From positions 2,849,501 through 2,913,500 of the forward strand of contig NZ_CP043633.1 in assembly GCF_012974865.1 (NCBI RefSeq): 64,000 nt of DNA. Direction: 5' to 3'. The notes under the pieces are model-generated. The model ran no database searches. It was not told the DNA's origin and saw nothing but the letters and a program-made list of their open reading frames with translations. This DNA is from Nonlabens sp. Ci31 (GTDB lineage: Bacteria > Bacteroidota > Bacteroidia > Flavobacteriales > Flavobacteriaceae). A program made the position numbers and the translations under genes. Below are positions 5,809 through 21,880 of this stretch, in pieces (the stretch's first letter is position 1; the number at the start of each line of letters is the position of its first letter).

Positions 5809-5882
5809 GGGCTCGTAGCTCAGCTGGATAGAGCACCTCCCTTCTAAGGAGGCGGTCACAGGTTCGAATCCTGTCGGGCTCA
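5809..5882 (+). tRNA. tRNA-Arg (anticodon UCU)
   Basis: A 74-nt cloverleaf. Acceptor GGGCTCG pairs with CGGGCTC using two G-U wobbles, with discriminator A. The D arm is GCTC..GAGC, the anticodon stem CCTCC/GGAGG carries loop CTTCTAA (anticodon TCT), and the T arm is CAGG-TTCGAAT-CCTG. No CCA is encoded. It is the left neighbour of the island; 3'-end-like fragments of it recur at 6056 and 6170. Confidence 0.96.
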
Positions 5883-6067
5883 CAATTACTTATGAATCCA
5901 TGCTTTTATGTAAAGCATGGATTTTTTTTATTTTAGGAGCGTTGAAAGTCCCAAGACTTTCATAAACGAATAGAATAAATACAATCTGTATCGCTCTTTC
6001 AGTGATACATAAATTCTTATTTGCAGGATGTAGCACATTCAGGATCATGAAATTAATCCTGTCGGGT

Positions 6068-6180: not shown

Positions 6181-6249
6181 TCACGAATAAATAGTATTAT
6201 TAGGAAAAACGCCACGCTCGCTTGAGCGTTTTTTTGTTTATGATATTTT
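6181..6249 (+). repeat. Island-flanking direct repeat, degenerate copy B
   Basis: Second tandem copy of the left repeat, about 113 bp after copy A, with several substitutions but the same hairpin and T tract. It is preceded by a CAGGAT..ATCCTGTCGG tRNA-3'-end-like segment. The truncated RHS gene starts in frame directly at its right end. Confidence 0.85.
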
Positions 6250-6262
6250 AGACCGTCCCGTA

Positions 6263-8923
6263 TTGACTCAAGATGGAAATCAGCGCATAGGTGGTAATGG
6301 AGTTGCTCCCAACTGGATGTTTACGAAGTATGATAAGTTAGGAAGAGTGGTCTACACGGGGCTTTTTACGAGTCCGCTTTCGCGAAAGCAATTACAGCAG
6401 CAACATCTCGATACACAAACAGCAAGTAATGTTTATGAGACACGTATCAAAACTGGTTTTACCAATGGAGGAAAAGCCATACGTTATTCTAATACTAATT
6501 TTCCATCAAATCTAAACAATATGACCGTGCTGAGTGTCAGTTATTATGACGATGCTACTCAGGTTGCGGGATCTAATACAACCTACGATACAGATGTGAT
6601 TTTAAGCAATAACTTAGCCTATACTAATGTGTACAGTCCTATTTTATCTACATCAAACACAGGGCTTCCTACCATAAGCGAAACCAGAGTATTAGGAACT
6701 AACGACTGGATCACCAGTGCTTCTTACTACGACATCAAAGCAAGAGCCGTATATGGAGCAATGGTCAACGATTATTTGGGTACTTGGGACAAGAGCTGGA
6801 GCAATATAGATTTTATAGGCAAGGCAACAGAGACCAAAACCGAACACCACAAACAAAGTCTTTCTCAGACCATCACAACTACAGATTATCTTACTTATGA
6901 CCATATGGATAGACTGACCACTCATGTGCAAATGATAGGCTCACAGCCATTAGAGCGCGTCGTAAACAATACCTATGACGCTATGGGACAGCTAGAATCT
7001 AAGGGCGTAGGAGGAACAACAACAGCATCACAAAGTTTACAAACGGTAGATTATAATTACAATGTACGAGGATGGTTGACCAATATTAACGATCAAAATA
7101 ATTTAGGTAATGATCTTTTTGGGTTTGACATAAATTATAACGCTCCTGCTTTAGGTTCTGGATCTGAAGCATTGTACAATGGTAATATATCTGAGACCTT
7201 ATGGAAAACTGCAAATGATGGAATTACGAGAGGCTATCAATACGGTTACGATGCTCTCAATAGAATAAAGTATGCTACCTATAGAGGAGGAACCCAACAT
7301 CAAGCCTCTGGAATGTTAGAAAACTATTCCGTAAACAATGTCAACTATGATAAGAATGGAAATATTACCACTTTAAATAGAAAGGGTCTTTTTGAAAACG
7401 CATCAAATAGTACGATGTCTATGGATTATGTGGACAAGCTTACTTATCAGTACAGTCCTAAAAGCAATCAGTTAATAAACGTAAGGGATATTGCAGATGT
7501 TGCGGCAAATAATACATTCAATGGAGGCTTTAAAGATAAATACTCAGGAATTAACTACATTTATGGTGACGCAAATGGGAATATGACTCAGGATAACAAC
7601 AAAAATATTCAAAGCATAAGCTATAATCACTTGAACTTACCTACCCAAATAGAGTTTACCGGTGATCGTACAATTGTTTACACTTACGATGCATCTGGGG
7701 TAAAATTAAAAAAAGAAATATTTTTAACTGTACGGGATTTGTTTAATCCAGTAGCTGATCTTACCAGTATTTATGCCGGGAATTACATCTATGAAAAAGA
7801 CAGCTCTGGTGAGAAGCTTTCGTTCTTCTCCCATCCAGAGGGCTATATAGAAAAGAATGGGACTGATTACGACTATGTATATCAATATAAAGACCACTTA
7901 GGTACGGTAAGACTTTCTTACTCAGATACCAATAACAACGGCTCTGTAACAAGTGCTGAGATCAGAGAAGAGAATAATTACTATCCTTTTGGGCTTAAAC
8001 ATAAAGGGTATAATAACGTGATTACTGGACGTGATCATAAATATGGTTTTGGTGGTAAAGAAGAACAGGGTGAACTTGGTTTAGAATGGCATGATTTTCA
8101 TGCTAGGAATTATGATGCAAGTTTGGGTAGATGGATGAATTTGGATAATCTAAGTGAAATGTATTATAACCATTCACCTTTCAACTATACTACAAACAAT
8201 CCTATCTATTTTATAGATCCAGATGGAAATAAAATAATTGATAATGATGGAATCGTATCAAAACAAAAAAGTCAAATAGCAAGTGATCAGAATGATGTAA
8301 ATCTCATGGTCAGTAATGGAGCACTTGATACTGAAGTTGCTAAAAAAATTAACAATTTCTATAATTCAGTTTTAAAAGAGATAACAGATTTAGAAGATTC
8401 AAAACAAGTTTATAGAGTATCATATGATAGCAATTTTTCCGGTAATGAAGGTGAAACAAGTTATGATTGGATTAATCATGATGTTGCTGTAAAGTTTAGT
8501 AAATCCGCATCATTTGGTACTGTTGGTCACGAATTAAAACACGCTTATCAATTTGAGACAGGTAATGTTGGATTTACTAGAAACGGACAATCTCCATTAT
8601 ATGATATTACAGATGAAACTGAAGGTTATAATCGTGAACTTGATCTAGAACGTACTATTAGTCAATTTTCTCCGGTAAACCCACTTTCTCCAATAAAAGG
8701 GAATAAACGAGATTTTACCGATCAAGATATCATAGACAAAGGAAAAACTTTTACTGTTCCTGCTTATCAAAACTTGCCTAGTAGCTCTATTAGTATTAAT
8801 AGTAAGACAGGTAGAAAATTACGTAAAATGGCCAAAGAATCTGGGTTAAATGATACGCCTGTAAACAATGTTTATATCGGATGGCAGAAGGATTACAATA
8901 AAGGTGTTAAAAAAAGAAAATAA
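6263..8923 (+). CDS. RHS/YD-repeat protein, 5'-truncated, with a metallopeptidase-like toxin tip
   Basis: C-terminal part of a polymorphic RHS toxin. The frame is open back to 6191 and already reads RHS sequence before the TTG at 6263 (DRPVLTQDGNQR), so the true N-terminus is missing and the gene is joined to direct repeat B. YD-repeat shell segments (GYQYGYDALNRIKYATY, YGDANGNMTQDNN) lead to the RHS-associated core (YYPFG, then FGGKEEQ, then LGRWMN, then NNPIYFIDPDG). After the core, about residues 650-886 are a unique tip with HELKH at 756-760, an HExxH-type zinc-peptidase motif, followed by DETEGYNRELDLE as a possible third ligand region. A small exported protein starts directly after the stop. 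An iterated CGCTTTCGCGAAAGC palindrome lies near the start. Expression is doubtful without a promoter. Confidence 0.82.
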   Translation: MTQDGNQRIGGNGVAPNWMFTKYDKLGRVVYTGLFTSPLSRKQLQQQHLDTQTASNVYETRIKTGFTNGGKAIRYSNTNFPSNLNNMTVLSVSYYDDATQVAGSNTTYDTDVILSNNLAYTNVYSPILSTSNTGLPTISETRVLGTNDWITSASYYDIKARAVYGAMVNDYLGTWDKSWSNIDFIGKATETKTEHHKQSLSQTITTTDYLTYDHMDRLTTHVQMIGSQPLERVVNNTYDAMGQLESKGVGGTTTASQSLQTVDYNYNVRGWLTNINDQNNLGNDLFGFDINYNAPALGSGSEALYNGNISETLWKTANDGITRGYQYGYDALNRIKYATYRGGTQHQASGMLENYSVNNVNYDKNGNITTLNRKGLFENASNSTMSMDYVDKLTYQYSPKSNQLINVRDIADVAANNTFNGGFKDKYSGINYIYGDANGNMTQDNNKNIQSISYNHLNLPTQIEFTGDRTIVYTYDASGVKLKKEIFLTVRDLFNPVADLTSIYAGNYIYEKDSSGEKLSFFSHPEGYIEKNGTDYDYVYQYKDHLGTVRLSYSDTNNNGSVTSAEIREENNYYPFGLKHKGYNNVITGRDHKYGFGGKEEQGELGLEWHDFHARNYDASLGRWMNLDNLSEMYYNHSPFNYTTNNPIYFIDPDGNKIIDNDGIVSKQKSQIASDQNDVNLMVSNGALDTEVAKKINNFYNSVLKEITDLEDSKQVYRVSYDSNFSGNEGETSYDWINHDVAVKFSKSASFGTVGHELKHAYQFETGNVGFTRNGQSPLYDITDETEGYNRELDLERTISQFSPVNPLSPIKGNKRDFTDQDIIDKGKTFTVPAYQNLPSSSISINSKTGRKLRKMAKESGLNDTPVNNVYIGWQKDYNKGVKKRK
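6375..6389. repeat. Iterated palindrome, copy 2
   Basis: CGCTTTCGCGAAAGC inside the truncated RHS gene. It is the only copy within the island. Confidence 0.95.
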
Positions 8924-9517
8924 ATGAAAATAATAATTTTAATCGTTATTTTAACAATTCTGAATAACAGTTCGCAAAGTGAACAAGGTAATTATAGTTA
9001 TCGTCAAACTCATTATTATGAGTCCATAGAACTTAAACAAAACCAGAAATTTACCTACTTACTGAGAAAAAATTTTTCCGAGTATATAGTTAATGGTAAT
9101 TACAATATTTCACAAGACAGTTTGTTCCTAAATAGCTTTCCTCAAAGAGACAGAATAATTGTTAGGGAAGAAAACAAGAGAAATAAAAACAAAGATACTT
9201 TTATCGTACAAACTAAAGAGGGAATAGATTTTCACTATAATTTATATCTAACTTTAGAGGATGGGAATTTAATAGTATTAAAAAATAAAATAGGAAAATC
9301 TACAATAAAGAATAAAAGAATAAAGAGTTTCTATTTAAAAGATAATAATGGAATTAGATCGCCTGAACATGTAATATATGGGAATTCTAATAATTATTTT
9401 GAAATATTTTTTGAAACCAAAAGGGTTTTTGAAAATGAAAGTTGGATCCTAAAATTGGATAAAATAAAACCTCGTGATTTTAGTGGGAGTTTAACAAGTT
9501 ATTATTTAAAAAAATAG
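8924..9517 (+). CDS. Candidate immunity protein for the HELKH RHS tip (exported)
   Basis: A 197-residue protein of no family I recognise. The ATG directly follows the TAA of the RHS toxin gene (TAAATG), the usual toxin-immunity arrangement. Residues 1-20 form a hydrophobic signal (MKIIILIVILTILNNSSQS), so the product is likely periplasmic or membrane-anchored. The rest is basic, Asn/Lys-rich and predicted beta-rich (YNISQDSLFLNSF, YLTLEDGNLIVLKNK). Position and size make immunity likely, but there is no family evidence. It ends about 80 bp before a REP fragment and the IS4-type transposase remnant. Confidence 0.6.
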   Translation: MKIIILIVILTILNNSSQSEQGNYSYRQTHYYESIELKQNQKFTYLLRKNFSEYIVNGNYNISQDSLFLNSFPQRDRIIVREENKRNKNKDTFIVQTKEGIDFHYNLYLTLEDGNLIVLKNKIGKSTIKNKRIKSFYLKDNNGIRSPEHVIYGNSNNYFEIFFETKRVFENESWILKLDKIKPRDFSGSLTSYYLKK

Positions 9518-9598
9518 GTATTGTGGGTAGTGTTCCAAATTAGGACATATAGATATTATAAGTGTTAAATAATTGAAATACAGCAATTGGTATAAATA

Positions 9599-9617
9599 CC
9601 CAGCTGGCGCGAGCGCA
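9599..9617 (+). repeat. REP-like half element before the IS4 remnant
   Basis: CCAGCTGGCGCGAGCGCA matches the left half of the island REP palindrome. The other half is missing where the transposase remnant begins; a full REP follows the remnant at 10383. Confidence 0.6.
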
Positions 9618-9639
9618 ATGTCATTAAGTTAAGGCTTTG

Positions 9640-10377
9640 TCAAACTCCATCTTTCTGATTTTTAGTTATTTTAGGTTTTATACGATTACGATATTTCCCT
9701 GGTCTACGTTCAAATTTCCGATTAGGTCTTATAGGCACTAAATTTGATTTGAATAATAATTTAAGTTCTTCTACAATATCTGTTTCAACTGATTGTTCTT
9801 CCAAAAACAGTGTTACAATTCTATTTTTTAATAGCCCGTAAGACACATTGGTATTTACCTTGTAATCATATTTCTTAGTCTGATTACCTTCCTTAATTTC
9901 ATCTTCTAATTCACTAACTATTAATGTTTGTACATTACTGACAAATAATGCAGCTTTAAAATCTTGAAGAATACTTAGGTTTGAGTAACCTGAAAAATGT
10001 TCTACTTTCAATTTATTTTTAAGCTCATCATAAAAAGTTTCTACTCTCCAGCGCTTAAAATAGAGCTGTTTAAACTCATTAGTTGAGTATAAGTTACTAT
10101 TTGCTAAAGATGTTATCAAAATCTCAACCTGACCTTTTCCTAATTCTACCCTAACAAGTCTAACTTTAATAGGCGTATTTCGAGTGTATTGTTTGTCTGA
10201 AAGCTTTGCGTTTTTCCCTGGATACATTTCAGTAACAATAGATTTTTTACCGCTCTTTTCAAAATCCTTAATTAGACCGCTAAAACCTATCTTAACTCTC
10301 ATTACATAATTTAATCCTCTATCAAGATGTTGATTAATGAAATCATACGAAGGGTAACCTCTATCATAAATTATCAA
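9640..10377 (-). pseudogene. IS4-type DDE transposase, N-terminally truncated
   Basis: A 245-residue C-terminal part of an IS4-superfamily transposase. The second catalytic Asp region (IIYDRGYPSYDF) and the Y-(2)-R-(3)-E-(6)-K signature (YFKRWRVETFYDELKNK) are present; the N-terminal part with the first catalytic Asp is absent, because the frame ends abruptly at the REP element at 10383. It is therefore an inactive remnant. REP sequence lies on both sides (9599 and 10383), so the insertion or its decay may have involved recombination between REPs. No clean terminal inverted repeats could be paired by eye. Confidence 0.8.
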
Positions 10378-10382
10378 ATCAT

Positions 10383-10457
10383 CCCAGCTGGCGCGAGCGT
10401 CACGCTCGTGATCTACACAACATGAAGAATAAAAAGGAAAGCTAGCAATGGCTTTCC
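10383..10457 (+). repeat. REP + hairpin module 1
   Basis: REP element with a perfect 7-bp inverted repeat around one base (CGAGCGT-C-ACGCTCG), then GATCTACAC, then hairpin GGAAAGC..GCTTTCC at 10436-10457. The left end joins the truncated IS4 transposase. Confidence 0.85.
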
Positions 10458-10502
10458 TTGGTAGTGTAAATTAAACTCTGTCTGACATTTATTTTTTCAT
10501 TT

Positions 10503-10589
10503 CCCAGCTGGTGCAAGCGCCTCGCTTGTGATCTACACAGCAAGAGTTAAGAAAGAAAAAGGAAAGCTAGCGATGGTTTTCCTTTTTTT
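10503..10589 (+). repeat. REP + terminator module 2
   Basis: REP variant with CAAGCG/CGCTTG stem, GATCTACAC tail, then terminator GGAAAGCTAGCGATGGTTTTCC plus T7 ending at 10589. Lies 40 bp before the truncated RHS cassette 2. Confidence 0.85.
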
Positions 10590-10630
10590 AGGGAACATGA
10601 TTAAATCGAAGCCATATTTTTAAATACCTC

Positions 10631-11852
10631 ATGAACCTCTCTGCCAAAGATCGTTTTGCCGGCGATCAAAAAATCAACTACATTTATGATGCAGCAGGAA
10701 TAAAAATGCAAAAAAGAGTGTACCACGCCACGTCACATACCGTGCCTATTAAAATCACCAGCTATGCGGGTAACTACATCTATGAAAAAGACAACTCTGG
10801 TGAGAAGCTTTCGTTCTTCTCCCATCCAGAGGGTTATGTAGAGAAGAACGGAAGTACATACAGTTATGTCTATCAATATAAAGACCACTTAAATAACATA
10901 AGACTTTCTTATTCAGATATTAACGGAGGTGGTTCTGTAGATTCTTCTGAAATCAAAGAAGAGAATAATTATTATCCCTTTGGTGGAAAATTAAAAGGCT
11001 TTAATAATGTGATTACTGGGCGTGACCATAAATATGGTTTTGGTGGTAAAGAAGAACAAGATGAACTTGGATTAGAATGGATGGACTTCCATGCTAGAAA
11101 TTATGATGCAAGTCTAGGTAGGTGGATGAATATTGATCCAATGGCTGAAAAATTCTATGATTTTACTCCATATAACTATGCGAATAATAACCCTATTTAT
11201 TTATTGATCCTGATGGGATGGAGTCTAAAGATTGGGTTTACAAAGACGGAGGTTATTATTGGGATGAAAATATTAATGCAGCTGATGAAGTTCCGGAGAA
11301 TAGCGGAATAGAATATGTTGGTGAAAACAGATCAGATGTGGATCAGCATTATGATAATAGAAGCAGTTGGGATGCTATAAAAACAGGTGGTAAAAATGTG
11401 GATGAACAATCGTATTATAACTATGTTAATAAAACTATAAATAAGAATTTGAATAGGGCTATCAATAGCGCAAATACACAAAATCCTGTTTATATTTTTG
11501 AAGGGATTAGAGGTTTGAATCATGATCAAAAAATGTATTCTACTAACAGTGCATCTAATACAGCCAAAACTTTAAAGGTTTTCAATTAGAATTTGACGGT
11601 TATGAAGCAACCGTGGGGAGAGGTGTGTTGTTAACAACTGGTAAAAGAACCACTTTTAGAGAAATGCATACTATTCATATGGTTAAATTTAAGGAGCAAA
11701 CTTATAATGGTAGACCTTCGAATGTAAAACTTCCTTTAATGATAAATCTCTATGGTCCGCAACGCAGAGATGTCGATGCTATAGGGACTATATATTTATC
11801 TCGTGACTATTTAGATTACTTTGACAATGTACGGAAAAATGGTAGTCATTAA
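10631..11852 (+). pseudogene. RHS C-terminal cassette 2, two frameshifts
   Basis: A displaced RHS tip: about 190 residues of RHS-associated core (DAAGIKMQKRV, then YYPFGG, then FGGKEEQDELGLEW, then LGRWMNIDP, then NNPIY) followed by a toxin tip. Two frame breaks are visible. At about 11203, NNPIY runs into LLILMGW; one extra T would restore FIDPDGMES. At about 11574, the frame changes near KTLK and continues as GFQLEFDGYE. Restored, the tip would run from about 11206 to 11852 (about 215 residues) and has no motif I recognise. Both breaks lie in homopolymer runs, so sequencing error is an alternative to decay. The only start is an internal RHS methionine, with no promoter box. A candidate immunity gene follows 15 bp downstream. 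Confidence 0.8.
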
Positions 11853-11867
11853 AAACACATAAGCAAT

Positions 11868-12290
11868 ATGAATAGTAAAAAAATTATTTTGGGAATTTTG
11901 ACAGCATTGATCATATTATTTATAACGATAATTTATGTAAAATGGTCGTTTTGGAATGAAATTGAAAATGATAAATATCTCATAGGTAGTTTACAATTTT
12001 ATATTAGTGATTATAATGATTTAAATAATGAAAACCCTGATAAAACTAAAATTAAAGACTTTTTAAACAGAAATAATAAAAATTTAAAATTAACAAACAA
12101 CGATATCCATGTTACTGAAATGGATGGGCTTTTACTTATTAATATTAGAACTGATACTTCAATTTTAAATTCTTGGAATGAAGATAAAGGCAAAGTTAGC
12201 GAGGTTAATTATAACAATATAGAATCCTCTAACTCCTTTATTAAATTTTTAATTAATGATCAAAGTACATATACGTTGTATCTAAATTAA
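11868..12290 (+). CDS. Candidate immunity protein for RHS cassette 2 (membrane-anchored)
   Basis: 140 residues, no recognised family. Residues about 5-24 form one transmembrane or signal-anchor helix (IILGILTALIILFITIIYV), followed by a polar domain of about 110 residues rich in Asn, Asp and Lys (DLNNENPDKTKIKDFLNRN). Placed 15 bp after the broken RHS tip, as expected for an immunity gene. The frame is intact while the toxin frame is broken, a common decay order in orphan modules. The function is inferred from position only. Confidence 0.58.
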   Translation: MNSKKIILGILTALIILFITIIYVKWSFWNEIENDKYLIGSLQFYISDYNDLNNENPDKTKIKDFLNRNNKNLKLTNNDIHVTEMDGLLLINIRTDTSILNSWNEDKGKVSEVNYNNIESSNSFIKFLINDQSTYTLYLN

Positions 12291-12371
12291 GGGTAGTGTT
12301 GCTCTGCAACCAACTAGAATATTTGGTAATGGTTCCCGCTAGAGCCAATGGTGAAGTTCCAAAATCAAATC

Positions 12372-12446
12372 CCCAGCTGGCGCGAGCGTCACGCTCGTGA
12401 TCTACACAACATGAAGAATAAAAAGGAAAGCTAGCAATGGCTTTCC
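12372..12446 (+). repeat. REP + hairpin module 3
   Basis: Same REP and GGAAAGC..GCTTTCC hairpin as at 10383, part of the 409-bp duplication. Confidence 0.85.
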
Positions 12447-12491
12447 TTGGTAGTGTAAATTAAACTCTGTCTGACATTTATTTTTTCATTT

Positions 12492-12578
12492 CCCAGCTGG
12501 TGCAAGCGCCTCGCTTGTTATCTACACAGCAAGAGTTAAGAAAGAAAAAGGAAAGCTAGCGATGGTTTTCCTTTTTTT
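12492..12578 (+). repeat. REP + terminator module 4
   Basis: Same as module 2 (10503-10589) with one base change in the REP (CTTGTTATC for CTTGTGATC); terminator hairpin and T7 intact. Confidence 0.85.
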
Positions 12579-12619
12579 AGGGAACATGATTAAATCGAAG
12601 CCATATTTTTAAATACCTC

Positions 12620-13849
12620 ATGAACCTCTCTGCCAAAGATCGTTTTGCCGGCGATCAAAAAATCAACTACATTTATGATGCAGCAGGAATAAAAATGCAA
12701 AAAAGAGTGTACCACGCCACGTCACATACCGTGCCTATTAAAATCACCAGCTATGCGGGTAACTACATCTATGAAAAAGAATCCACCACAGAATCTCTAC
12801 AATTTTTCTCCTATCCAGAAGGCTACGTAGAGAAGAATGGATCAAGCTTTGACTATGTATATCAATACAAAGACCATCTTAAAAATGTAAGACTTTCTTA
12901 TTCAGATAGTAACAATGACGGATCGATAGATGCAGCAACAGAAATCATATCGGAGAAAAATTATTATCCATTTGGATTGACTCACAAAGGATATAACAAT
13001 GTTATAAGCGGTAACTCAAATGCAGCTGCTGATAAATTTGGTTTTGGTGGTAAAGAATTACAGGATGAACTAGGTTTGGAATGGATGGATTTTCATGCTA
13101 GGAATTATGATGCTAGTTTGGGTAGGTGGATGAATGTAGATCCACTGGCGGAGAAGTTTGTTGCTTGGAGTCCGTATGTTTACGTTCACAATAATCCAAT
13201 TAATATGACTGACCCTACTGGTATGGAAGCAGAATGGGTTCCAGACCAAAACGGAAACTTAATAGCGCAAGCTGGAGATAACGCAGCTAGTCTTGCTAAA
13301 CATCTGAATATATCTGAAAGTAAAGCTTCTAATATGATTAATAGCCAAAATCTAACTAGAGATAATTATGTTGAAAGTGATCCTAGTGTAACTAAAGATC
13401 AAACTCTTATTGTTGATAACATTATGACCAGAGGAACTGATTCAGAAACTGATACAAGCGATAAAACATCTTACCAATATAATTGTCATGATTGTTCGAA
13501 AGCAGTTGTTACAGGAGAGGAATTGAGCTCTAGTATGACAAGTAGAGGTGCGCCGTCTTTAGCAGACCCTATTTTCACTACAAGAAAGGATAAAAATTAT
13601 AAAGAATCTACAACTGAAGTTACAGCAAACGAAGCTGTTTTTGGACAAACAGTAATAACTATAGGTACTTTACATTCTGTAGTTTATTATGGTAAAAGTC
13701 AGGATGGTACAGTCTATGCTTTCACTAAAGAAGGGCATAGTAGTTTTGTTAAACCAAGGGTGGAGAAGCTTTCAGATATATACAACCGACATAACGCAAC
13801 AACTAAAGGTGATGAAAAAATTAGGTATTTTAATCATAATAGTAATTAG
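12620..13849 (+). CDS. RHS C-terminal cassette 3 with a Cys/His peptidase-like toxin tip
   Basis: A displaced RHS tip of 409 codons from an internal methionine. Residues 1-200 are RHS-associated core (YYPFGLTHKGYNNVISG, then FGGKELQDELGLEW, then LGRWMNVDPLAEKF, then NNPINMTDPTG). The tip begins at about residue 205. It has a short LysM-like stretch (NLIAQAGDNAASLAKHLNIS), then YNCHDCSKAV with Cys289 and Cys292, and a later HSVVYYGKSQDGTVY with His352. A Cys followed by His-x-V-x-Y-Y-G resembles the layout of papain-fold amidase/peptidase toxins (NlpC/P60-like); this is inference. The frame is intact and the candidate immunity gene overlaps its 3' end. No promoter box is seen, so it is probably a silent donor cassette. 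Confidence 0.8.
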   Translation: MNLSAKDRFAGDQKINYIYDAAGIKMQKRVYHATSHTVPIKITSYAGNYIYEKESTTESLQFFSYPEGYVEKNGSSFDYVYQYKDHLKNVRLSYSDSNNDGSIDAATEIISEKNYYPFGLTHKGYNNVISGNSNAAADKFGFGGKELQDELGLEWMDFHARNYDASLGRWMNVDPLAEKFVAWSPYVYVHNNPINMTDPTGMEAEWVPDQNGNLIAQAGDNAASLAKHLNISESKASNMINSQNLTRDNYVESDPSVTKDQTLIVDNIMTRGTDSETDTSDKTSYQYNCHDCSKAVVTGEELSSSMTSRGAPSLADPIFTTRKDKNYKESTTEVTANEAVFGQTVITIGTLHSVVYYGKSQDGTVYAFTKEGHSSFVKPRVEKLSDIYNRHNATTKGDEKIRYFNHNSN

Positions 13850-14354
13850 TTTTTATAACTGTAAATCAACAGATGAAAACCCAATTACTGACGATAAATT
13901 AGGCTTAGTGTTTAAATTTCGTTCAGATGTTTTAAGATTTGAGGATTATCAAATTTGTAAGGATATAAATGACGGATTTTACATAGGTTTACCTTATTCA
14001 GAGATTAAGGGTAAAAAAATGGATTTACTAAATTCTATTTCTTTTATAAAATCTGATACAATCTTAATTAGAGCTCTTCCTTTACAGGTTTCAGTAAGTA
14101 ATTATCCCAAATCAGATGCTTTAGTTACAACTTCTAATGACAAAAAGAATCTATTAGGCTATAAGGATGATGATGATATTTTTTGGTTTTCTTTTATAAG
14201 TAATCCCAAAAGACCATATAATATTAATATTCTATCTGATGAGAATCAAATCAAAAATTGCATAAAATGGGAAAATGTAAAGTCTATTAAAAGTTTTAAT
14301 GGAAAAGATATAAATGAATCTGATCTTATAATTAATCAAAATGTCTCACAATAG
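13812..14354 (+). CDS. Candidate immunity lipoprotein for RHS cassette 3
   Basis: 180 residues, no recognised family. The frame is open further upstream, but the ATG at 13812 gives a clean export signal (KKLGILIIIVISFYNCKS) with a Cys at a lipobox-like position, so this start is preferred. It overlaps the toxin gene by 38 bp, implying translational coupling. The mature part is acidic and Lys/Asn-rich with beta-strand character (KSDTILIRALPLQVSVSNY). A hairpin terminator of the GGAAAG type lies 27 bp downstream. Immunity function is inferred from position and export signal. Confidence 0.6.
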   Translation: MKKLGILIIIVISFYNCKSTDENPITDDKLGLVFKFRSDVLRFEDYQICKDINDGFYIGLPYSEIKGKKMDLLNSISFIKSDTILIRALPLQVSVSNYPKSDALVTTSNDKKNLLGYKDDDDIFWFSFISNPKRPYNINILSDENQIKNCIKWENVKSIKSFNGKDINESDLIINQNVSQ

Positions 14355-14380
14355 TTGATATGGTTTTTATAACCTTATAA

Positions 14381-14408
14381 GGAAAGTCAAAAACGGTTTT
14401 CCTTTTTT
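14381..14408 (+). terminator. GGAAAG-type terminator after cassette 3
   Basis: GGAAAGTCAAAAACGGTTTTCC followed by a T run. It is the same hairpin family as in the REP modules, here without an adjacent REP. Confidence 0.8.
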
Positions 14409-14420
14409 CATGCACTAAAA

Positions 14421-14525
14421 TCAAGCTAAAAACCGTTCCATTAGTTTTTCCAACACCTCTGTATCTCTTTGAGCCAATTTAGAAGATTTTGCAGCGAGTT
14501 GTTCGAGTTTGCTAGGCGTTGCAAC
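14421..14525 (-). pseudogene. C-terminal remnant of an unidentified gene (copy 1)
   Basis: On the minus strand about 34 codons end in a TGA at 14421. The peptide is helical (SKLEQLAAKSSKLAQRD, then EVLEKLMERFLA). The nucleotide sequence is repeated at 15888-15992. No start, no identifiable domain; possibly the tail of a lost island gene. Confidence 0.3.
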
Positions 14526-14582
14526 TCATCAAAACCGCAACAAAAGTGTTCCAAAGTTGGGACAAGTGCCTTAAATAAAAAG

Positions 14583-14982
14583 GTTCTCCAATAGAAACGG
14601 AGGTTTTAAAGAAATATACTTAGAAACTAACTATAGTTATGCTGATACAAACGGCAACATGACTCAGGATAACAATAAAGGAATCAGACTAGAAATAGCC
14701 AGGAATAACAACGTACAAAACGAACAACTTTTAATACCACAAAACTACTTTAATGACCTGATCGGAAAGAGCATTATAAAATGACTAAAAAAGATCAATA
14801 GCAAAGCAGGAAACGTGAATCATCTGCGAGCATCCGTAATCGTGAATTGGTTGAAACAGCACAACATCAGAAAAGTCCAATATCTAGCGGGCCATAAGTT
14901 TATCAGTTCTACAGAAAAATACAAACAGAACCATCTTGAAAGTCTGCAAGATGCCGTAAACGAGTTTCATCCGTTATCCTAA
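14583..14982 (+). pseudogene. RHS-core / tyrosine-recombinase chimera, copy 1
   Basis: The first ~35 codons are RHS sequence (NRNGGFKEIYLETNYSY, then GNMTQDNNKGI). They run in frame into the C-terminus of a tyrosine recombinase (RLEIARNN, then LLIPQNYFNDLIGKSIIK). A stop interrupts at about 14782, after which the catalytic region continues: HLRASVIVNWLKQ (Arg), LAGHKF (His) and SSTEKY (Tyr nucleophile), ending in HPLS. The catalytic N-terminal domain is missing, so this is not functional. The same join occurs at 16047 and 20198. A well-formed promoter and an ORF6N gene follow. Confidence 0.75.
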
Positions 14983-15011
14983 AAGTCAGTATCAAATAAT
15001 CACAATAATAA

Positions 15012-15019
15012 TATCTTTG
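15012..15019 (+). promoter_or_regulatory. TAnnTTTG promoter box for ORF6N gene 1
   Basis: TATCTTTG ends 4 nt before the ATG at 15024, implying a leaderless or nearly leaderless mRNA. Confidence 0.65.
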
Positions 15020-15023
15020 CAGC

Positions 15024-15551
15024 ATGAGTAAAAAAGAAATCTCCATACCAGAAGAAATAATTGCTAATAAAATACACTTGATAAGAGAACAGAAAGTAAT
15101 GTTGGATAAAGACCTAGCAGAACTTTATCAAGTTGAAACCAAGCAACTCAAACGCCAAGTTAGAAGAAATATAGATCGTTTTCCTGAAGATTTTATGATC
15201 GAACTGGATCAAGAAGAGTTTACAAACTTGAGGAGCCAATCTGGCACCTCAAAATGGGGCGGAACAAGATATGCTCCTATGGCTTTTACTGAGCAAGGAG
15301 TTGCAATGTTATCAAGTGTTTTAAGTAGCCCAACGGCCATAAAAGTACACATCCAAATCATAAGAGTATTTACCAAGATCCGAGAAGTTCTAAAAAATCA
15401 TAGCGATTTACTTTTACGAATGGAAAAGCTAGAAAGAAATACCAGTAAACACGATATGCAAATTTCACAGGTTTTTGATCTCATAAAACAGTTGGTAAAA
15501 CAAGAAGAAGCTCCACGTACACAAATCGGTTACAAAAAAGATAACAAATAA
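15024..15551 (+). CDS. ORF6N-domain DNA-binding protein 1
   Basis: 175 residues. Residues about 10-100 form an ORF6N domain (IHLIREQKVMLDKDLAELY, then RFPEDFMIELDQEE, then MAFTEQGVAMLSSVL), a putative DNA-binding domain common in phage and mobile-element antirepressor-like proteins. Residues about 125-160 form a coiled coil (LLLRMEKLERNTSKHDMQIS). The second copy at 20640 has nearly identical 5' and 3' ends but a divergent centre. Its own promoter box suggests expression. Function in the island (regulation or immunity to phage) is unknown. Confidence 0.85.
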   Translation: MSKKEISIPEEIIANKIHLIREQKVMLDKDLAELYQVETKQLKRQVRRNIDRFPEDFMIELDQEEFTNLRSQSGTSKWGGTRYAPMAFTEQGVAMLSSVLSSPTAIKVHIQIIRVFTKIREVLKNHSDLLLRMEKLERNTSKHDMQISQVFDLIKQLVKQEEAPRTQIGYKKDNK

Positions 15552-15758
15552 AAAGCCAGAAGATTTCTATGGTCTTGTCGATAGGATGAATCAACCTCTT
15601 GACTTTTGCGCATGGTTCAAAGAATATAGTTTACAAAAATGTAAAGACTATATGATCGACATTAGTAAACCAGTTCCATTAACTCACTATAAAAAATATA
15701 AATAGAAATGGTAAGCAACACTTCATACATTTGGGCAAAAAAATAAAGTAATAATAGC
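15552..15758 (+). pseudogene. 3' fragment of the 17665 lipoprotein gene
   Basis: About 200 bp starting right after the ORF6N stop are close to 17995-18200, the C-terminal third of the lipoprotein at 17665-18192 (PEDFYGLVDRMNQ, then CKDYMID). A few substitutions and a frame break (TATAAAAAATATAAATAG) show decay. It is followed by a degenerate REP and a GGAAAG terminator, the same order as after the intact gene. Confidence 0.75.
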
Positions 15759-15764
15759 AAAGTC

Positions 15765-15876
15765 CTCTGCTGGCGCCAGTCTACAAAGTCGCTAGTGCTA
15801 GTTTTTAACTAGTACCGTACTGAGTAAAAACGATGTAATCAATAAAAGGAAAGTCATAAACGGCTTTCCTTTTTTT
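15765..15876 (+). repeat. Degenerate REP + GGAAAG terminator
   Basis: CTGCTGGCGCCAGTCTACA looks like a REP that has lost its central palindrome. It is followed by a CTAGT..ACTAG inverted repeat and the terminator GGAAAG..CTTTCC plus T7 (15848-15876). The block recurs at 17303-17415. Confidence 0.7.
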
Positions 15877-15887
15877 AGGCGCTAAAA

Positions 15888-15992
15888 TCAAATTAAAAAC
15901 CGTTCCAATAGTTTTTCCAACACCTCTGTATCTTTTTGAGCCAATTTAGAAGATTTTGCAGCGAGTTGTTCGAGTTTGCTAGGCGTTGCAAC
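15888..15992 (-). pseudogene. C-terminal remnant of an unidentified gene (copy 2)
   Basis: Second copy of the minus-strand helical tail seen at 14421-14525, inside the larger repeat that also carries the RHS/recombinase chimera. Confidence 0.3.
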
Positions 15993-16046
15993 TCATCAAA
16001 ACCGCTACAAAAGTGTTCCAAGGTTGGGACAAGTGCCTTAAATAAA

Positions 16047-16448
16047 GGGTTCTCCAATAGAAACGGAGGTTTTAAAGAAATATACTTAGAAACTAACTAT
16101 AGTTATGCTGATGCAAACGGCAACATGACTTAGGATAACAATAAAGGAATCAGACTAGAAATAGCCAGGAATAACAACCTACAAAACGAACAACTTTTAA
16201 TACCACAAAACTACTTTAATGACCTGATCGGAAAGAGCATTATAAAAAGACTAAAAAAGATCAATAGCAAAGCAGGAAACGTGAATCATCTGCGAGCATC
16301 CGTAATCGTGAATTGGTTGAAACAGGACAACATCAGAAAAGTCCAATATCTAGCGGGCCATAAGTTTATCAGTTCTACAGAAAAATACAAACAGAACCAT
16401 CTTGAAAGTCTGCAAGATGCCGTAAATGAGTTTCATCCATTGAGATAA
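16047..16448 (+). pseudogene. RHS-core / tyrosine-recombinase chimera, copy 2
   Basis: Close to copy 1 over about 590 bp including upstream sequence. Here the recombinase part is uninterrupted (IIKRLKKINSK, then HLRASVIVNWLKQ, then LAGHKF, then SSTEKY, ending HPLR), but the RHS part has a stop (GNMT-stop-DNN). Catalytic Arg, His and Tyr are all visible. Without the N-terminal domain it cannot be an active recombinase. It ends 50 bp before yefM. Confidence 0.75.
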
Positions 16449-16484
16449 ATACTGAATAAAAGTACTTGATTAGGTACTTTTTAT

Positions 16485-16492
16485 TATCTTTG
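16485..16492 (+). promoter_or_regulatory. TAnnTTTG promoter box for yefM-yoeB
   Basis: TATCTTTG ends 4 nt before the ATG at 16497; likely leaderless. Upstream AGTACTTGATTAGGTACT is an inverted repeat that may be the autoregulatory operator. Confidence 0.6.
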
Positions 16493-16496
16493 CTTT

Positions 16497-16745
16497 ATGG
16501 AAACAGTAAATTATACAGACTTTCGTTCCAATCTGAAGCATTGGTTTGATAAAGTAGTCAATGATGTAAGCGATATCATTATCAAGCGTAAAAGTGGTAA
16601 AGACCTTGTTTTAATATCGTTAGACGAATACAACTCATTAAAGGAAACGACCTATTTGCTAACAGGAAAAAATAGAGATATTTTATTAAACTCTATCAAA
16701 GAACTTGAAGCAGGTAAAGGAGTTCAAAAAGGTTTAATAGAATAG
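16497..16745 (+). CDS. yefM: YefM/Phd-type antitoxin
   Basis: The 82-residue antitoxin of a type II pair. The N-terminal Phd/YefM fold is visible (VNYTDFRSNLKHWFDKV, then DIIIKRKSGKDLVLISLDEY), followed by the C-terminal toxin-binding segment (YLLTGKNRDILLNSIKELEAGKG). It neutralises YoeB and, in this family, represses its own promoter; an inverted repeat AGTAC..GTACT overlaps the promoter region at 16460-16480. The TAG stop is directly followed by the toxin ATG, so the two are co-translated. Such modules often stabilise genomic islands. Confidence 0.95.
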   Translation: METVNYTDFRSNLKHWFDKVVNDVSDIIIKRKSGKDLVLISLDEYNSLKETTYLLTGKNRDILLNSIKELEAGKGVQKGLIE

Positions 16746-17006
16746 ATGAAATTAACTTGGTCTACTTCTTCTTGGGAAGATTATTTGTATTGGCAGAAAG
16801 TCGATAAGAAAATCGTAAAACGAATTAATGAACTTATTAAAAGTTGTTTGCGAACACCTTTTGAAGGCATAGGAAAACCCGAAGCTTTAAAGGGCGATTT
16901 ACAGGGTTATTTGTCAAGACGAATAACATCAGAACATCGATTGGTTTACAAATACGAAAAAGAAGAAATCTTGATAGCAGCTTGTCGTTATCATTACGGG
17001 AAATAA
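16746..17006 (+). CDS. yoeB: YoeB-type mRNA interferase toxin
   Basis: 86 residues of the RelE/ParE superfamily, YoeB subgroup. Features are WSTSSWEDYLYWQKVDKK near the start, PFEGIGKPEALKGDLQGYLS in the middle and the catalytic tail RRITSEHRLVYKY..CRYHYGK. The family cleaves mRNA at the ribosome. The end residues Arg, His and Tyr match the catalytic set. It is intact, starts directly at the antitoxin stop, and would be expected to be active. An imperfect inverted-repeat block of unknown type follows at 17119-17275. Confidence 0.95.
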   Translation: MKLTWSTSSWEDYLYWQKVDKKIVKRINELIKSCLRTPFEGIGKPEALKGDLQGYLSRRITSEHRLVYKYEKEEILIAACRYHYGK

Positions 17007-17118
17007 ATCCCACACAAGATAAAGGCCAGATTATTGCCAAAAAAAGGCAAGAATCCTCTGTCTTTTATCCTGTTCCGCGCGCCACCACTTCTATGGTTTT
17101 TGGGTCACATTTTTTGTA

Positions 17119-17275
17119 GCCAACGCACAAACAGCACATTACGTTTTTAAAAAGATTTAGTTGTTTAAAGAAAGTTGTAATCTTAAAAAAGTAAAGAGCT
17201 GCGCCAACGCTCAAAAACAAAAAATCTGCCATAAAAACCACCCCAAGCTATGTTACATAATAGAAGTTATGTTCG
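17119..17275 (+). repeat. Long imperfect inverted-repeat block, copy 1
   Basis: Begins GCCAACGCAC, contains AGCACATTACGTTTTT with a complementary AAAAAAGTAAAGAGCTGC, a second GCCAACGC box, and ends CCCCAAGCTAT..TTACATAATAGAAGTTATGTTCG (inverted ACATAA/TTATGT). The same elements in the same order occur at 21171-21353. Nature unknown. Confidence 0.55.
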
Positions 17276-17302
17276 TACAAACGGAACTCTGCTACCTACA
17301 AG

Positions 17303-17415
17303 CCCCTGCTGGTCCCGGTCTACAAAGTCGCTAGTGCTCGTTTTTAACGAGTACCGTTATGAGTAAAAACGATGTAATCAATAAAAGGAAAGTCAAAAAC
17401 CACTTTCCTTTTTTT
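17303..17415 (+). repeat. Degenerate REP + GGAAAG terminator
   Basis: CCTGCTGGTCCCGGTCTACA, then CTCGTTTTTAACGAG and terminator GGAAAG..CTTTCC plus T7 (17387-17415). Second copy of the 15765-15876 block. Confidence 0.7.
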
Positions 17416-17447
17416 ATGCACTAAAATCAAGCTAAAAACCGTTCCAC

Positions 17448-17648
17448 GGCTAGCGCGAGCATCTTGCTCGTGCCCTCAAAGAAAAGTAAACTGATTTTTA
17501 TCTATTTTTACTGAAAAGAGTTGATGAGCCGAAACTAAAATACATACACGACAATCCTGTTGTATAAGGCTTTGTGACCAACCCAATAGATTGGAAATTG
17601 ATATAAATTAGATAGTGTGTACGAGCGAGACGCTCGCACCTGCTGGGG
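17448..17648 (+). mobile_element. Internally deleted RAYT derivative (MITE-like), 201 bp
   Basis: Carries both RAYT element ends: left REP (CTAGCGCGAGCATCTTGCTCGTG) and right REP (ACGAGCGAGACGCTCGCACC..GCTGGGG). Between them the transposase is reduced to its leader and a bit of its 3' end. The main deletion joins GAGCCGAAA to CTAAAATACATAC, with GAAA microhomology. A second deletion removed about 50 bp between two TTGGAAAT direct repeats near the 3' end. Not autonomous. Confidence 0.8.
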
Positions 17649-17664
17649 AAATAATACCTAAAAA

Positions 17665-18192
17665 TTGAAAAATTCTAAAATAATATACTGCTTACTACTT
17701 TTCTGTTTTTTAATATCGTGCAAGACGAACCTAGTTGAGTTTAATAGCGGTAAACCAGATGTCTATAAATCTTTAATTAAAGATTTCGAAGAAAGAGTGT
17801 TAAATAAAACACCAAATGACACTTTAAAATTAATAGAAATATTTTCCAATGATAAAATTTTAAATGATGGAACTTTATTTACATTTTATCAATGGAAAAA
17901 GTCAGTCGTAGTAGTACCTGACTCTATTTATGATGTTGACTATATTTTAAAAAATGATAGGATCTATTATTGGCAGGACAAGGGAACAAAGAAAAAGCCA
18001 CAAGATTTCTATGGTCTTGTCGATAGGATGAATCAACATCTTGACTCTTGCGCATGGTTCAAAGAATATAGTTTACAAAAATGCAAAGACTATATGATTG
18101 ACATTAGTAAACCAATTCCATTAACTTACTATAAAAAAATAAATAGAAATGGTAAGCAACACTACATACATTTGGGCAAAAAAATAAAGTAA
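17665..18192 (+). CDS. Exported lipoprotein, orphan immunity candidate
   Basis: 175 residues from a TTG start; no recognised family. The N-terminus is a lipoprotein signal with a good lipobox (LLLFCFLISCKT). The mature domain is polar with a Lys-rich end (YIHLGKKIK). The start is only 16 bp downstream of the RAYT derivative, so any toxin partner upstream has been lost. Its 3' third is duplicated at 15552-15758, in both cases followed by a REP and a terminator. Given its similarity in layout to the other exported proteins after RHS tips, I infer an orphan immunity gene. Confidence 0.6.
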   Translation: MKNSKIIYCLLLFCFLISCKTNLVEFNSGKPDVYKSLIKDFEERVLNKTPNDTLKLIEIFSNDKILNDGTLFTFYQWKKSVVVVPDSIYDVDYILKNDRIYYWQDKGTKKKPQDFYGLVDRMNQHLDSCAWFKEYSLQKCKDYMIDISKPIPLTYYKKINRNGKQHYIHLGKKIK

Positions 18193-18205
18193 TAATAGCA
18201 AAGTT

Positions 18206-18299
18206 CCCCTGCTGGTGCGAGCGTCTCGCTCGTGATCTACACGGTAAGAGGCGAGAATAACAATTTAAATAAGGGAGTTAGAGATAGCTTTCCTTTTTC
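18206..18299 (+). repeat. REP + hairpin module 5
   Basis: CCCCTGCTGGTGCGAGCGTCTCGCTCGTGATC REP, then an imperfect AGGGAG..CTTTCCT hairpin with T run. A short RHS-like scrap (AACCTCTCTACCAAAG) follows at about 18343. Confidence 0.7.
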
Positions 18300-18392
18300 T
18301 ATCCAATAATCTCAGGGTCAAATAACAGATTTAACCACCTTAGTAACCTCTCTACCAAAGCCCCAGCTGGTGCGAGCGTAATTAGCCGGAAC

Positions 18393-19054
18393 GTCTAGCG
18401 CGAGCATCTTGCTCTTGCCCTCAAAGAAAAGTAAACTGATTTTTATCTATTTTTATTAAAAAGAGTTAATGTGCCGAAAGTATAAATTTGCAGATAAATC
18501 TGGTGCGTACTTTATAAGCTTTGCTACTGTGAACTGGATAGATGTATTTACTAGAGACACTTACTTTTGGTGTATTATAGCATCGTTAGATTTTTGCAGA
18601 AAAAATAAAGGCATGGAGCTTTATGGTTATTGTATCATGCCAAGCCACGTTCATTTAATTTTTCGGTCAGCATTAAACGATCCATCAGGATTAATAAGAG
18701 ATTTTAAAGGGTTTACTTCAAAGAAAATAGTTAAAATCATTGATGATAATCCACAAGAAAGCCGAAAAGAATGGATGCTCTGGATGTTTGAACGTGCTGG
18801 CAAAAAAAATAGCAATGTTACCAATAAACAGTTTTGGCAGCAGGATAATAAACCAATAGAGATTTGGTCATTAAACGTATTTGAGCAGAAACTAAAATAC
18901 ATACACAACAATCCTGTTGTATCAGGCTTTGTGACCAACCCAATAGATTGGAAATTTAGCAGTGCAAGAAATTATGGTAATGATGACCATACCATTTTGG
19001 AAATTGATATAAATTAGATAGTGTTTACGAGCGAGACGCTCGCGCCAGCTGGGG
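18393..19054 (+). mobile_element. RAYT transposon between inverted REPs (full-length, 662 bp)
   Basis: Left end CTAGCGCGAGCATCTTGCTC..GCC and right end ACGAGCGAGACGCTCGCGCC share the REP core in opposite orientation (GCGCGAGC..GCTCG). The 182-codon transposase is the only gene. To the left a broken REP (GTGCGAGCGTAATTAGCCGG) abuts it; the same broken context is found next to the copies at 19918 and 21508. Confidence 0.8.
18469..19017 (+). CDS. REP-associated tyrosine transposase (RAYT, Y1 HUH family)
   Basis: 182 residues of the Y1 transposase family (IS200/IS605-like, RAYT/TnpA-REP branch). The HUH metal site is MPSHVHLIF (residues about 60-68), and the Y1 tyrosine lies in KYIHNNPVV near residue 144. 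The start region (KYKFADKSGAYFISFATVNW) is typical. RAYTs process single-stranded REP hairpins and are thought to mobilise them. The gene is flanked by inverted REPs and is intact, so it may act in trans on the many REPs and the two deleted derivatives in this island. Chosen start ATG at 18469, 76 bp into the element. Confidence 0.92.
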   Translation: MCRKYKFADKSGAYFISFATVNWIDVFTRDTYFWCIIASLDFCRKNKGMELYGYCIMPSHVHLIFRSALNDPSGLIRDFKGFTSKKIVKIIDDNPQESRKEWMLWMFERAGKKNSNVTNKQFWQQDNKPIEIWSLNVFEQKLKYIHNNPVVSGFVTNPIDWKFSSARNYGNDDHTILEIDIN

Positions 19055-19233
19055 AATTTGGAACAGCAGCTAGAACATATAAAAATGCTGTAAATATAAA
19101 AGTAAGTAATCCTCAAGCATTAATAGTAGGTTGGAAGAAGTGGAGAGGTATCCCTTACAAGCCAATCGAAGGAGACTTTCATAACTCTCACAATCGAGTT
19201 GATGATTGGACTAATAATACACCAGACGAATAA
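19021..19233 (+). pseudogene. Remnant of an RHS toxin tip
   Basis: The reading frame runs out of the RAYT right-end REP into a peptide unrelated to REP (GTAARTYKNAVNIKVSN, then GWKKWRGIPYKPIEGDFHN, ending NNTPDE). The 5' part has been lost at 19055, where the REP ends, so about 59 codons of a former gene remain. It overlaps the next gene (TAATGA) in the toxin-immunity style. Most likely the last part of a toxin tip cut by the RAYT element. No family recognised. Confidence 0.5.
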
Positions 19234-19658
19234 TGAAAAAAATATTTTTACTCTTACTCACTTTGATTTTTTGTAGTTGTAATAGTGGTTACGATTATAA
19301 GATATCAGATTTAGAAAGTCAAAAGCTCAAATTTGATAAGTTGCCACAAATAGTAAAAGAATTTTTCTTGAGTCCACAAGAATTTGAAAAAGATAAAGGT
19401 GGTTATATTGACTTAGCATGTCTAGATCAAAAATGTTATTACAAATTAGAAGTCGTTAAAACAAGTGTTGGCTCTTGGGTTTCTTATGTCAAATTAATTG
19501 ATGAAAAAACTGGATTATCATATTATATCGATCAAGGAATACCGCAGCCTTATATTATACACAGTGAAAAGCTATATTTGATAAATCAGTTTAATGTTTT
19601 TACGACAGTTGAAGATTTTTCTACTTTAGAAATTACCTGCTATAATTTAAAAAGTTAA
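19233..19658 (+). CDS. Exported lipoprotein, candidate immunity protein
   Basis: 141 residues with a clear lipoprotein signal (KKIFLLLLTLIFCSCNSG). The mature domain begins YDYKISDLESQKLKFDKLP and contains DLACLDQKCYYKLEVVKTS and YYIDQGIPQPYIIHSEKLYL; I do not recognise the family. The start overlaps the stop of the toxin remnant (TAATGA), and a REP + terminator module follows directly. Intact immunity candidate with a destroyed toxin partner. Confidence 0.62.
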   Translation: MKKIFLLLLTLIFCSCNSGYDYKISDLESQKLKFDKLPQIVKEFFLSPQEFEKDKGGYIDLACLDQKCYYKLEVVKTSVGSWVSYVKLIDEKTGLSYYIDQGIPQPYIIHSEKLYLINQFNVFTTVEDFSTLEITCYNLKS

Positions 19659-19660
19659 TA

Positions 19661-21507: not shown

Positions 21508-21594
21508 GGCTAGCGCGAGCATCTTGCTCGTGCCCTCAAAGAAAAGTAAACTGATTTTTATCTATTTTTACTAAAAAAAGTTGATGAGCCGAAA
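21508..21594 (+). mobile_element. Truncated RAYT left end
   Basis: The left REP and transposase leader are present up to GAGCCGAAA, then the sequence changes abruptly into RHS-core sequence. No right end follows. The break is at the same GAAA where the deleted derivatives are joined. Confidence 0.75.
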
Positions 21595-21771: not shown

Positions 21772-21880
21772 CCTGCTACCAACGAGGCTCTTTTAAAATA
21801 GACCGTCACTTATAAGGGACGTAATTCATTTATAGATAGTTAGAAAAATGATTACTTAAATAGTATTTGAATTTACAAAA

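Follow-up and report, generated by a model that had tools for sequence, protein, structure and literature searches.

A row of displaced Rhs cassettes behind a tRNA-Arg gene

We analysed a stretch of 64,000 nucleotides from Nonlabens sp. Ci31 (the window; bases 2849501-2913500 of a single-contig genome of 3.74 Mb, called G000 below), in which truncated Rhs genes with different C-terminal tips, each followed by a small partner gene, lie in a row downstream of a tRNA-Arg gene. Positions are window coordinates. A first-pass annotation made from the sequence alone had described three core-bearing cassettes (at 6263, 10631 and 12620), a tip remnant and an orphan partner, and we find all of them co-oriented at 6.2-19.7 kb, all on the plus strand. 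The array reaches beyond the limit of 19658 given there, with Rhs core fragments up to 21.8 kb. Cores were called with the NCBIfam model TIGR03696 (Rhs_assc_core, cut-off 32.5 bits), which scored over its cut-off in the open reading frames (ORFs) of all three cassettes. Some features adjoin a REP-associated tyrosine transposase (RAYT) element, REP standing for repetitive extragenic palindrome, to which we return below. The cassettes, their partners and the borders of the island are as follows.

5809..5883, plus strand: tRNA-Arg(tct) gene (ARAGORN); the island is inserted at its 3' end
6018-6130 and 6131-6243, plus strand: two 113-nt repeats of the tRNA 3' end and terminator, putative att-like scars
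6263..8923, plus strand: cassette 1, a 5'-truncated Rhs gene of 886 aa (TIGR03696, 50.2 bits)
8924..9517, plus strand: partner of cassette 1 (immunity candidate), directly downstream, with an export-like start and no Pfam match
10631..11852, plus strand: cassette 2, an Rhs core with a frame-broken tip (TIGR03696, 50.6 bits on 10631-11311)
11868..12290, plus strand: membrane-anchored partner of cassette 2, open (best Pfam match DUF4179 with 20.7 bits, below the cut-off of 30.1)
12620..13849, plus strand: cassette 3, an Rhs core with an open tip (TIGR03696, 66.3 bits)
13812..14354, plus strand: lipoprotein-type partner of cassette 3, starting inside the end of the toxin frame (longest ORF from 13689)
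14596..14973, plus strand: Rhs core fragment, then a tyrosine-recombinase C-terminal fragment (14812-14973)
17665..18192, plus strand: orphan lipoprotein-type partner without a toxin (partial 3' copy at about 15538-15763)
19056..19233, plus strand: 3' stub of a fifth toxin tip, about 59 codons, directly after the right end of the RAYT element
19233..19658, plus strand: lipoprotein-type partner of the lost fifth tip
21581..21796, plus strand: last Rhs core fragment, joined to a copy of the RAYT left end at 21476
23496-23608, plus strand: right-hand copy of the repeat of tRNA 3' end and terminator

The insertion extends from about 5884 to 23569 (17.7 kb) and is absent from the same site in G010, which of all genomes best matches a protein of the right flank (83% identity). 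There, window positions 1-5883 align at 87.2% and 23570-27208 at 87.6%, and both stretches lie almost side by side, so the 17.7 kb represent either an insertion in the lineage of Ci31 or a loss in that of G010. The repeats of the tRNA end are what would be expected after repeated integrase-driven insertion. On the lack of a promoter box stated in the first-pass annotation, a scan for sigma-70 promoters was uninformative, with 87 sites against 72.0 (sd 9.5) in shuffles; terminator-like sites numbered 20 against 9.6 (sd 4.0).

Partner genes stay open where toxin tips are lost

Two of the five toxin tips are open frames, versus five of the five partner genes; the other toxins are broken, stubbed or gone. 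The tip of cassette 1 is open from about 8222 and carries an HExxH motif (HELKH), which in its relative from G021 is replaced by DELTH, with the first histidine lost. In cassette 2 the tip is split among different frames (10631-11311, 11218-11589 and 11613-11852). The remnant previously placed at 19055 proved to be a toxin 3' stub that follows the REP end near 19056 and lies upstream of a lipoprotein-type gene, and the orphan reported at 17665 is a partner gene (17665-18192) that has no toxin. A different exported partner had been proposed for each unit, and the five genes do differ, with export-like starts (three lipobox-like, one Sec-like and one membrane anchor) that were called by eye and not with a signal-peptide program. 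A small gene lies 3' of each cassette tip, and its predicted function is immunity.

Regarding selection on the partners, an orphan lipoprotein gene with a toxin stub is found at different loci of G000 (L013) and G010 (L074), with 81% identity over 561 nt. The ratio of nonsynonymous to synonymous substitution rates (dN/dS) of this shared orphan lipoprotein was 0.14, and those of four flanking control genes were 0.07, 0.08, 0.21 and 0.11. The value is compatible with retention for immunity.

Tips differ after a shared core, in the array and among relatives

As the first-pass annotation had stated, the Rhs N-terminus is missing. The frame from 6263 aligns only with the later part of full-length relatives, its residues 1-669 matching that part of G021 frames with proteins of 1483 and 1504 aa (61% identity to one full-length frame), and DUF6443 has no match in the Ci31 genome, while the same model scores 138.7 bits on a full-length gene of G021. 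Cassettes 2 and 3 have a block in common:

10383..10791, plus strand: two successive units of REP and terminator followed by the start of the Rhs head, identical in 408/409 nt to 12372-12780

This block starts at the first base of the REP (10383 and 12372), and its right edge lies inside the core. Past 10791/12780, cassettes 2 and 3 are 55-85% identical per window of 40 alignment columns up to the core end, with values down to 62% in the windows next to the edge, in which the identity of cassette 2 to cassette 1 reaches 95%. Because the identity profile drops so sharply there, the edge at 10792/12781 is probably a recombination breakpoint inside the core. Over the same stretch, cassette 1 shares 33-95% per window with cassettes 2 and 3, so the near-identical heads once ascribed to the whole row are a property of cassettes 2 and 3 and do not extend to cassette 1.

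Our genus set comprised 23 genomes, and gene context was examined for 32 of the 44 rows of Rhs cores. Cores over the cut-off numbered 42, in 11 of the 23 genomes, some short ones lying at contig ends; four are in frames longer than 1400 aa, two in G001 (known by length only) and two in G021. The two full-length genes of G021 share 96.9% identity across 3933 nt, a stretch that ends about 37 nt inside the core, and different tips follow. A displaced cassette of G021 matches one of these full-length genes at 97.1% over 757 nt, from -712 to +44 of the core. Likewise, three cassettes of G008 have heads that are 95-99% identical and different tips, and contigs C13 and C14 of G022 show 99.6% identity over 4098 nt and then different tips. 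At locus L013 of the Ci31 genome, two of three heads are 93% identical over 730 nt, the first head reaching 71-77%, and the tips differ. Finally, at the locus between trkH and aspC, G000 and G016 match at 80.0% along the left flank with some 190 nt of core, and at 80.5% along the right flank; the contents between them differ, save for short stretches resembling the core and one of the REP types (REP-B, below). The comparison of tips proposed by the first-pass annotation was run among relatives, all of other species, and instead of fixed tips it gave tips that differ after the shared core and at the orthologous trkH-aspC locus. Tip exchange among relatives is well supported by these alignments.

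Three side observations concern these loci. The trkH-aspC gap is a second site of tip cassettes in two species (L013, G000 1694000-1713500; L068, G016 C33; gene names assigned by eye). The full-length Rhs system of G021 is made of two genes (L053 1878-9988, L054 3297-11566), and its upstream genes differ in their N-terminal parts and share their end; exchange may also occur in the upstream gene. Besides, on contig C13 of G021 two displaced cassettes each have upstream, on their own strand, a transposase gene that we take to be IS1-like (L053 10597-11250 and 12996-13670).

No full-length rhs gene was found in the Ci31 genome. Its seven Rhs cores lie in frames of at most 910 aa, and the 11 protein matches of the island core in this genome are the cassettes and shorter pieces, with no longer copy. 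PF05593 (RHS_repeat) gave 0 matches in the genome although Rhs cores exist there, and this model by itself is therefore too insensitive. The silent reservoir for a full-length rhs gene that had been suggested thus lacks a recipient in its own genome, whereas the relative G021 has two full-length genes whose tips differ.

A RAYT element and REPs mark the unit ends

The array contains one RAYT element and two types of REP:

18361..19054, plus strand: RAYT element with a REP-type left end, a gene at 18469-19017 (PF01797, 31 bits) and an inverted REP-type right end
18208-18240, plus strand: a REP element
10384, 10504, 12373, 12493, 19662, 19759 and 21377, plus strand: REP-A elements
15795 and 17334, plus strand: REP-B elements

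The gene at 18469-19017 encodes a Y1 transposase with the motifs SHVH (HuH) and YIHNNP. Allowing up to 3 mismatches, REP-A has 12 copies in the genome, all on the plus strand and 11 of them in or near three Rhs regions, and REP-B has six. The search covered these two types, which add up to 18 copies, 16 in or near the three Rhs regions; none lies in window positions 24001-64000. In the genus, REP-B was found in 26 copies in 5 of the 23 genomes, versus 0 for a reversed control pattern, and 22 of the 26 are at Rhs or toxin/partner-like loci, as judged by eye (two uninspected). Within the array, a REP with a terminator closes most of the tip/partner units. We hand-chose ten partner genes from the three arrays of the Ci31 genome. 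Eight of them have a REP within 150 nt downstream, compared with 9.0% of positions drawn at random from these arrays, and the exceptions are 13812-14354 and 8924-9517, the latter having behind it a partial REP beside an IS4-type fragment.

In each of G000, G010, G016, G017 and G021, one or more loci have a near-clade RAYT gene next to Rhs or partner-like genes (for G010 and G017 this was assigned by eye or from a short remnant of a core). The single copy in G002 is flanked by other genes, and no Rhs core is near the seven distant-clade RAYTs of the genus (36-41% identity) or the G021 copies C5:1124381 and C11:103612. For genus loci L079-L085 the gene-by-gene reading covered L082, with the distant-clade loci L083-L085 left out.

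An integron cassette array was also considered for this row, given the one-strand cassettes, hairpins, toxin-antitoxin (TA) pairs and recombinase pieces. We set it aside, since the hairpins form an inverted pair at the two ends of the RAYT element, have a GTAG end and look REP-like.

Some RAYT genes lie close to Rhs cores in other genera

At the family level, at least 54 of 149 genomes have an Rhs core and 43 a RAYT at E <= 1e-20. Outside the genus we counted 50 RAYT loci in 41 genomes and used the 30 whose genomes have an Rhs core among those listed; distances and counts in this section refer to these listed cores. Seven of the 30 loci are within 5 kb of an Rhs core, against 0.22 expected, and eight within 10 kb, against 0.40; neither count was reached in any of 200,000 simulations, in which genomes are treated as uniform and contig breaks are ignored. 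In all eight pairs within 10 kb both genes are on the same strand with the RAYT downstream, and in G110 the partner genes are separated from the RAYT by three REP-B-like units. The remaining 23 of the 30 loci are more than 5 kb from a core.

As a control we used one insertion sequence (IS) family, IS110, restricted to loci in genomes with a listed Rhs core: 0 of 26 are within 10 kb of a core (0 of 20 outside the Ci31 genome). By Fisher's test, the difference between RAYT and IS110 gave P = 0.033 outside the Ci31 genome (7/30 vs 0/20) and P = 0.003 with this genome included (9/32 vs 0/26). RAYT might simply prefer terminators or islands. Where no listed Rhs core is near, RAYT copies also alternate with small genes, lipoprotein-like ones among them, at L073 of G010 and at L094 and L095 of G120; the RAYT genes at the G120 loci are near-identical. 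We found no description of an association between RAYT and Rhs in the open-licence literature, as far as its texts were available to us, nor in the titles and opening lines of abstracts of a broader set.

Mobile DNA and other genes of the island

The island further holds these features:

9640..10377, minus strand: IS4-type DDE transposase fragment (PF01609, 50.4 bits), adjoined by a partial REP at 9600
15024..15551, plus strand: ORF6N-domain gene (PF10543); a second gene at 20640-21167 is 73% identical (124.4 and 125.9 bits)
16497..17006, plus strand: YefM/YoeB toxin-antitoxin pair (PF02604, 58.7 bits; PF06769, 133 bits)
21996..23204, minus strand: IS3-type element near the right end (rve, 55.4 bits, on 21996-22883; 22890-23204 has no Pfam match)

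There are three tyrosine-recombinase C-terminal fragments in the island (14812-14973, 16278-16439 and 20428-20589), and in G022 two intact, overlapping tyrosine-recombinase genes precede a cassette. A unit of an Rhs fragment and a recombinase C-terminal fragment occurs three times (14596-15551, 16062-16439 and 20213-21167), followed in two cases by an ORF6N gene. TA-like pairs were seen in several tip arrays (window 16497-17006; L013 13792-14308, 15417-15719 and 17108-17398; L064 2058-2652; L096 7658-9163), some of them adjoining recombinase fragments; YefM/YoeB and two ParE were identified by Pfam and the others by eye.

Origin and present state of the island

We consider it likely that this is a tRNA-Arg island of displaced Rhs tip and partner cassettes, built by recombination through the core and by integrase-borne insertion, and now decaying. 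Both homologous recombination via the shared core and integrase-borne insertion at the tRNA gene would have contributed to the gain and exchange of tips. Decay would then break or remove the toxins, and the partner genes would outlast them. Since the genome has no full-length recipient, the array, if it acts at all, may now be mainly a store of immunity genes against the toxins of neighbours, or else a relic.

Several points weigh against this account. The tips of cassettes 1 and 3 remain open, so decay is incomplete and expression in place is possible. The roles of tips and partners as toxins and immunity proteins are candidate roles: besides the Rhs core, the tips have no Pfam or NCBIfam match over a curated cut-off in the hidden Markov model search against toxin families that the first-pass annotation had suggested, the partners match no known immunity family over the curated cut-offs of Pfam and NCBIfam, and neither have a solved structure at a useful E-value. 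In sequence searches of the PDB, tip 1 gave 0 hits and tip 3 two weak ones (E 0.19 and 1.3). The structure model of tip 3 was unusable, with a mean predicted local distance difference test score (pLDDT) of 34.9, and that of tip 1, made from two sequences, reached a mean pLDDT of 51.7; with the latter, Foldseek gave 0 matches at E <= 0.001 and a few metalloproteases among many chance hits, so the label of zinc metallopeptidase for tip 1 comes from the HExxH motif by itself. Moreover, exchange within the species itself was not seen, our comparisons being with other species, and G010 is the one relative in which the site without the island was compared. Regarding the orphan lipoprotein, its two stubs do not start at the same point, so the pair may have been under selection while the toxin was still present, and a second dN/dS pair (two G010 paralogues) was saturated and uninformative.

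One could argue that the locus is rather an acquired-immunity island of the recombinase-associated acquired interbacterial defence (rAID) kind, a co-oriented array of low GC content, linked to an integrase, that is retained for the orphan immunity genes it holds and carries toxin parts as passengers. Short co-oriented genes, a GC content of 0.28-0.40 per 1-kb window across the array (at least two co-oriented genes are under 41%), repeated intergenic motifs, recombinase fragments, open partners against broken toxins and the dN/dS of one orphan partner all fit this description. The presence of toxin tips and Rhs cores does not; besides, the array has no intact tyrosine recombinase, the fragments lying inside it and none upstream, and immunity is a prediction. 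We hold this explanation to be possible in a tentative way. The island could also be a junk pile, a tRNA hot spot that gathers IS elements and gene debris and has no function now, as the IS4, IS3 and RAYT pieces, the broken frames and the repeated recombinase fragments would suggest. This we find doubtful, given that five partners and two tips are open and that the layout of core, tip and partner recurs in the genus and in other genera.

A further alternative is that RAYT drives the mobility of the units, the REP hairpins at their ends being its substrate, so that units are copied or moved and REPs act as cassette borders. To our knowledge, the cellular role of RAYTs is not settled. The REPs 3' of most partner genes, the near confinement of REP-A to Rhs regions, the genus copies of REP-B at toxin-like loci, the nearness and common orientation of RAYT and Rhs in other genera and the RAYT copies alternating with small lipoprotein-like genes (G010 L073, G120 L094 and L095) all argue for it, as does the toxin-stub/lipoprotein unit common to different loci of G000 and G010. 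On the other hand, we saw no excised circle, exact REP-to-REP unit or precise empty site for a single cassette; in G010 the unit shared with G000 starts about 65 nt past the right end of the RAYT element, and different REP types follow the copies of this unit. REPs also lie across genes, as a bystander would (a tip frame on C32 of G016 ends in a REP), most RAYT loci of other genera have no listed Rhs core within 5 kb, several in the genus have no core near, and the contrast with IS110 is modest. We therefore judge RAYT-driven mobility unlikely. Its extended form, in which RAYT and REPs are partnered specifically with Rhs and other polymorphic-toxin loci in Flavobacteriaceae-type Bacteroidota, REPs are the 3' borders of units, and RAYT, alone or with tyrosine recombinases, moves, stacks or trims these units in an integron-like domesticated use, is in our opinion quite improbable.

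An active silent reservoir, whose cassettes recombine into a full-length rhs gene elsewhere, fits the layout and the relatives and is documented in Salmonella (PMC3967940), but is very unlikely in a single-contig genome that has no full-length gene, DUF6443 match or longer core copy.

Returning to an island built by core recombination and insertion, homologous recombination through the core is the usual explanation for the collection and swapping of tips (for instance in PMC10539506), and the array adds a candidate second agent beside it. The recurrent place of RAYT directly 3' of toxin/partner pairs across genera offers a testable setting for its role. Should RAYT be a bystander, the comparisons would still show that orphan loci exchange tips in genomes that yielded no full-length recipient.

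Comparison with known systems

Displaced Rhs tip cassettes in a tRNA island appear to be a known kind of locus, to which the association with RAYT and REPs would be a new addition. A related precedent for repeats at such loci is given by the Correia elements that flank type VI secretion system core clusters in some Neisseria (PMC10210955). Among the RAYT (TnpA-REP) proteins of Bacteroidetes (PMC6006769), ours shares the length of about 180 aa, the YIH[QN]NP motif of subclass 2.6 and flanking hairpins with copies elsewhere; unlike in that subclass, its first motif is SHVH and not NH[LIV]H, and the GTAG end of REP-A is given there for other subclasses. REPs usually number more than 100 per genome (PMC2817692), whereas the 12 REP-A and 6 REP-B copies found here stay below such high copy numbers for these types.

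With the rAID islands of gut Bacteroidales (PMC12247911) the locus shares a recombinase, co-oriented low-GC short genes, repeated intergenic motifs and putative orphan immunity, and it differs in having toxin tips and a recombinase only as fragments. Stand-alone toxin cassettes are known (PMC3482391, Zhang et al. 2012), and the polymorphic toxin cassettes of that work also have RHS repeats and HExxH metallopeptidase tips (there for Bacteroidetes); the marking of units by REPs and RAYT, present here, was not met in the available part of that text.

Exchangeable tips and orphan immunity are known in Serratia (PMC10539506), and in passaged Salmonella an orphan Rhs-CT recombined with the main gene (PMC3967940). 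The orphan rhs-CT/rhsI modules of Enterobacteriaceae described in the latter paper differ from the island in several respects, since its genome has no main rhs gene that we could find, its partners look exported and its cassettes lie in an island at a tRNA gene, together with RAYT, REPs and pieces of tyrosine recombinase. In both, core-plus-tip fragments and their partners lie in a row on one strand, and the shared core permits the exchange of tips.

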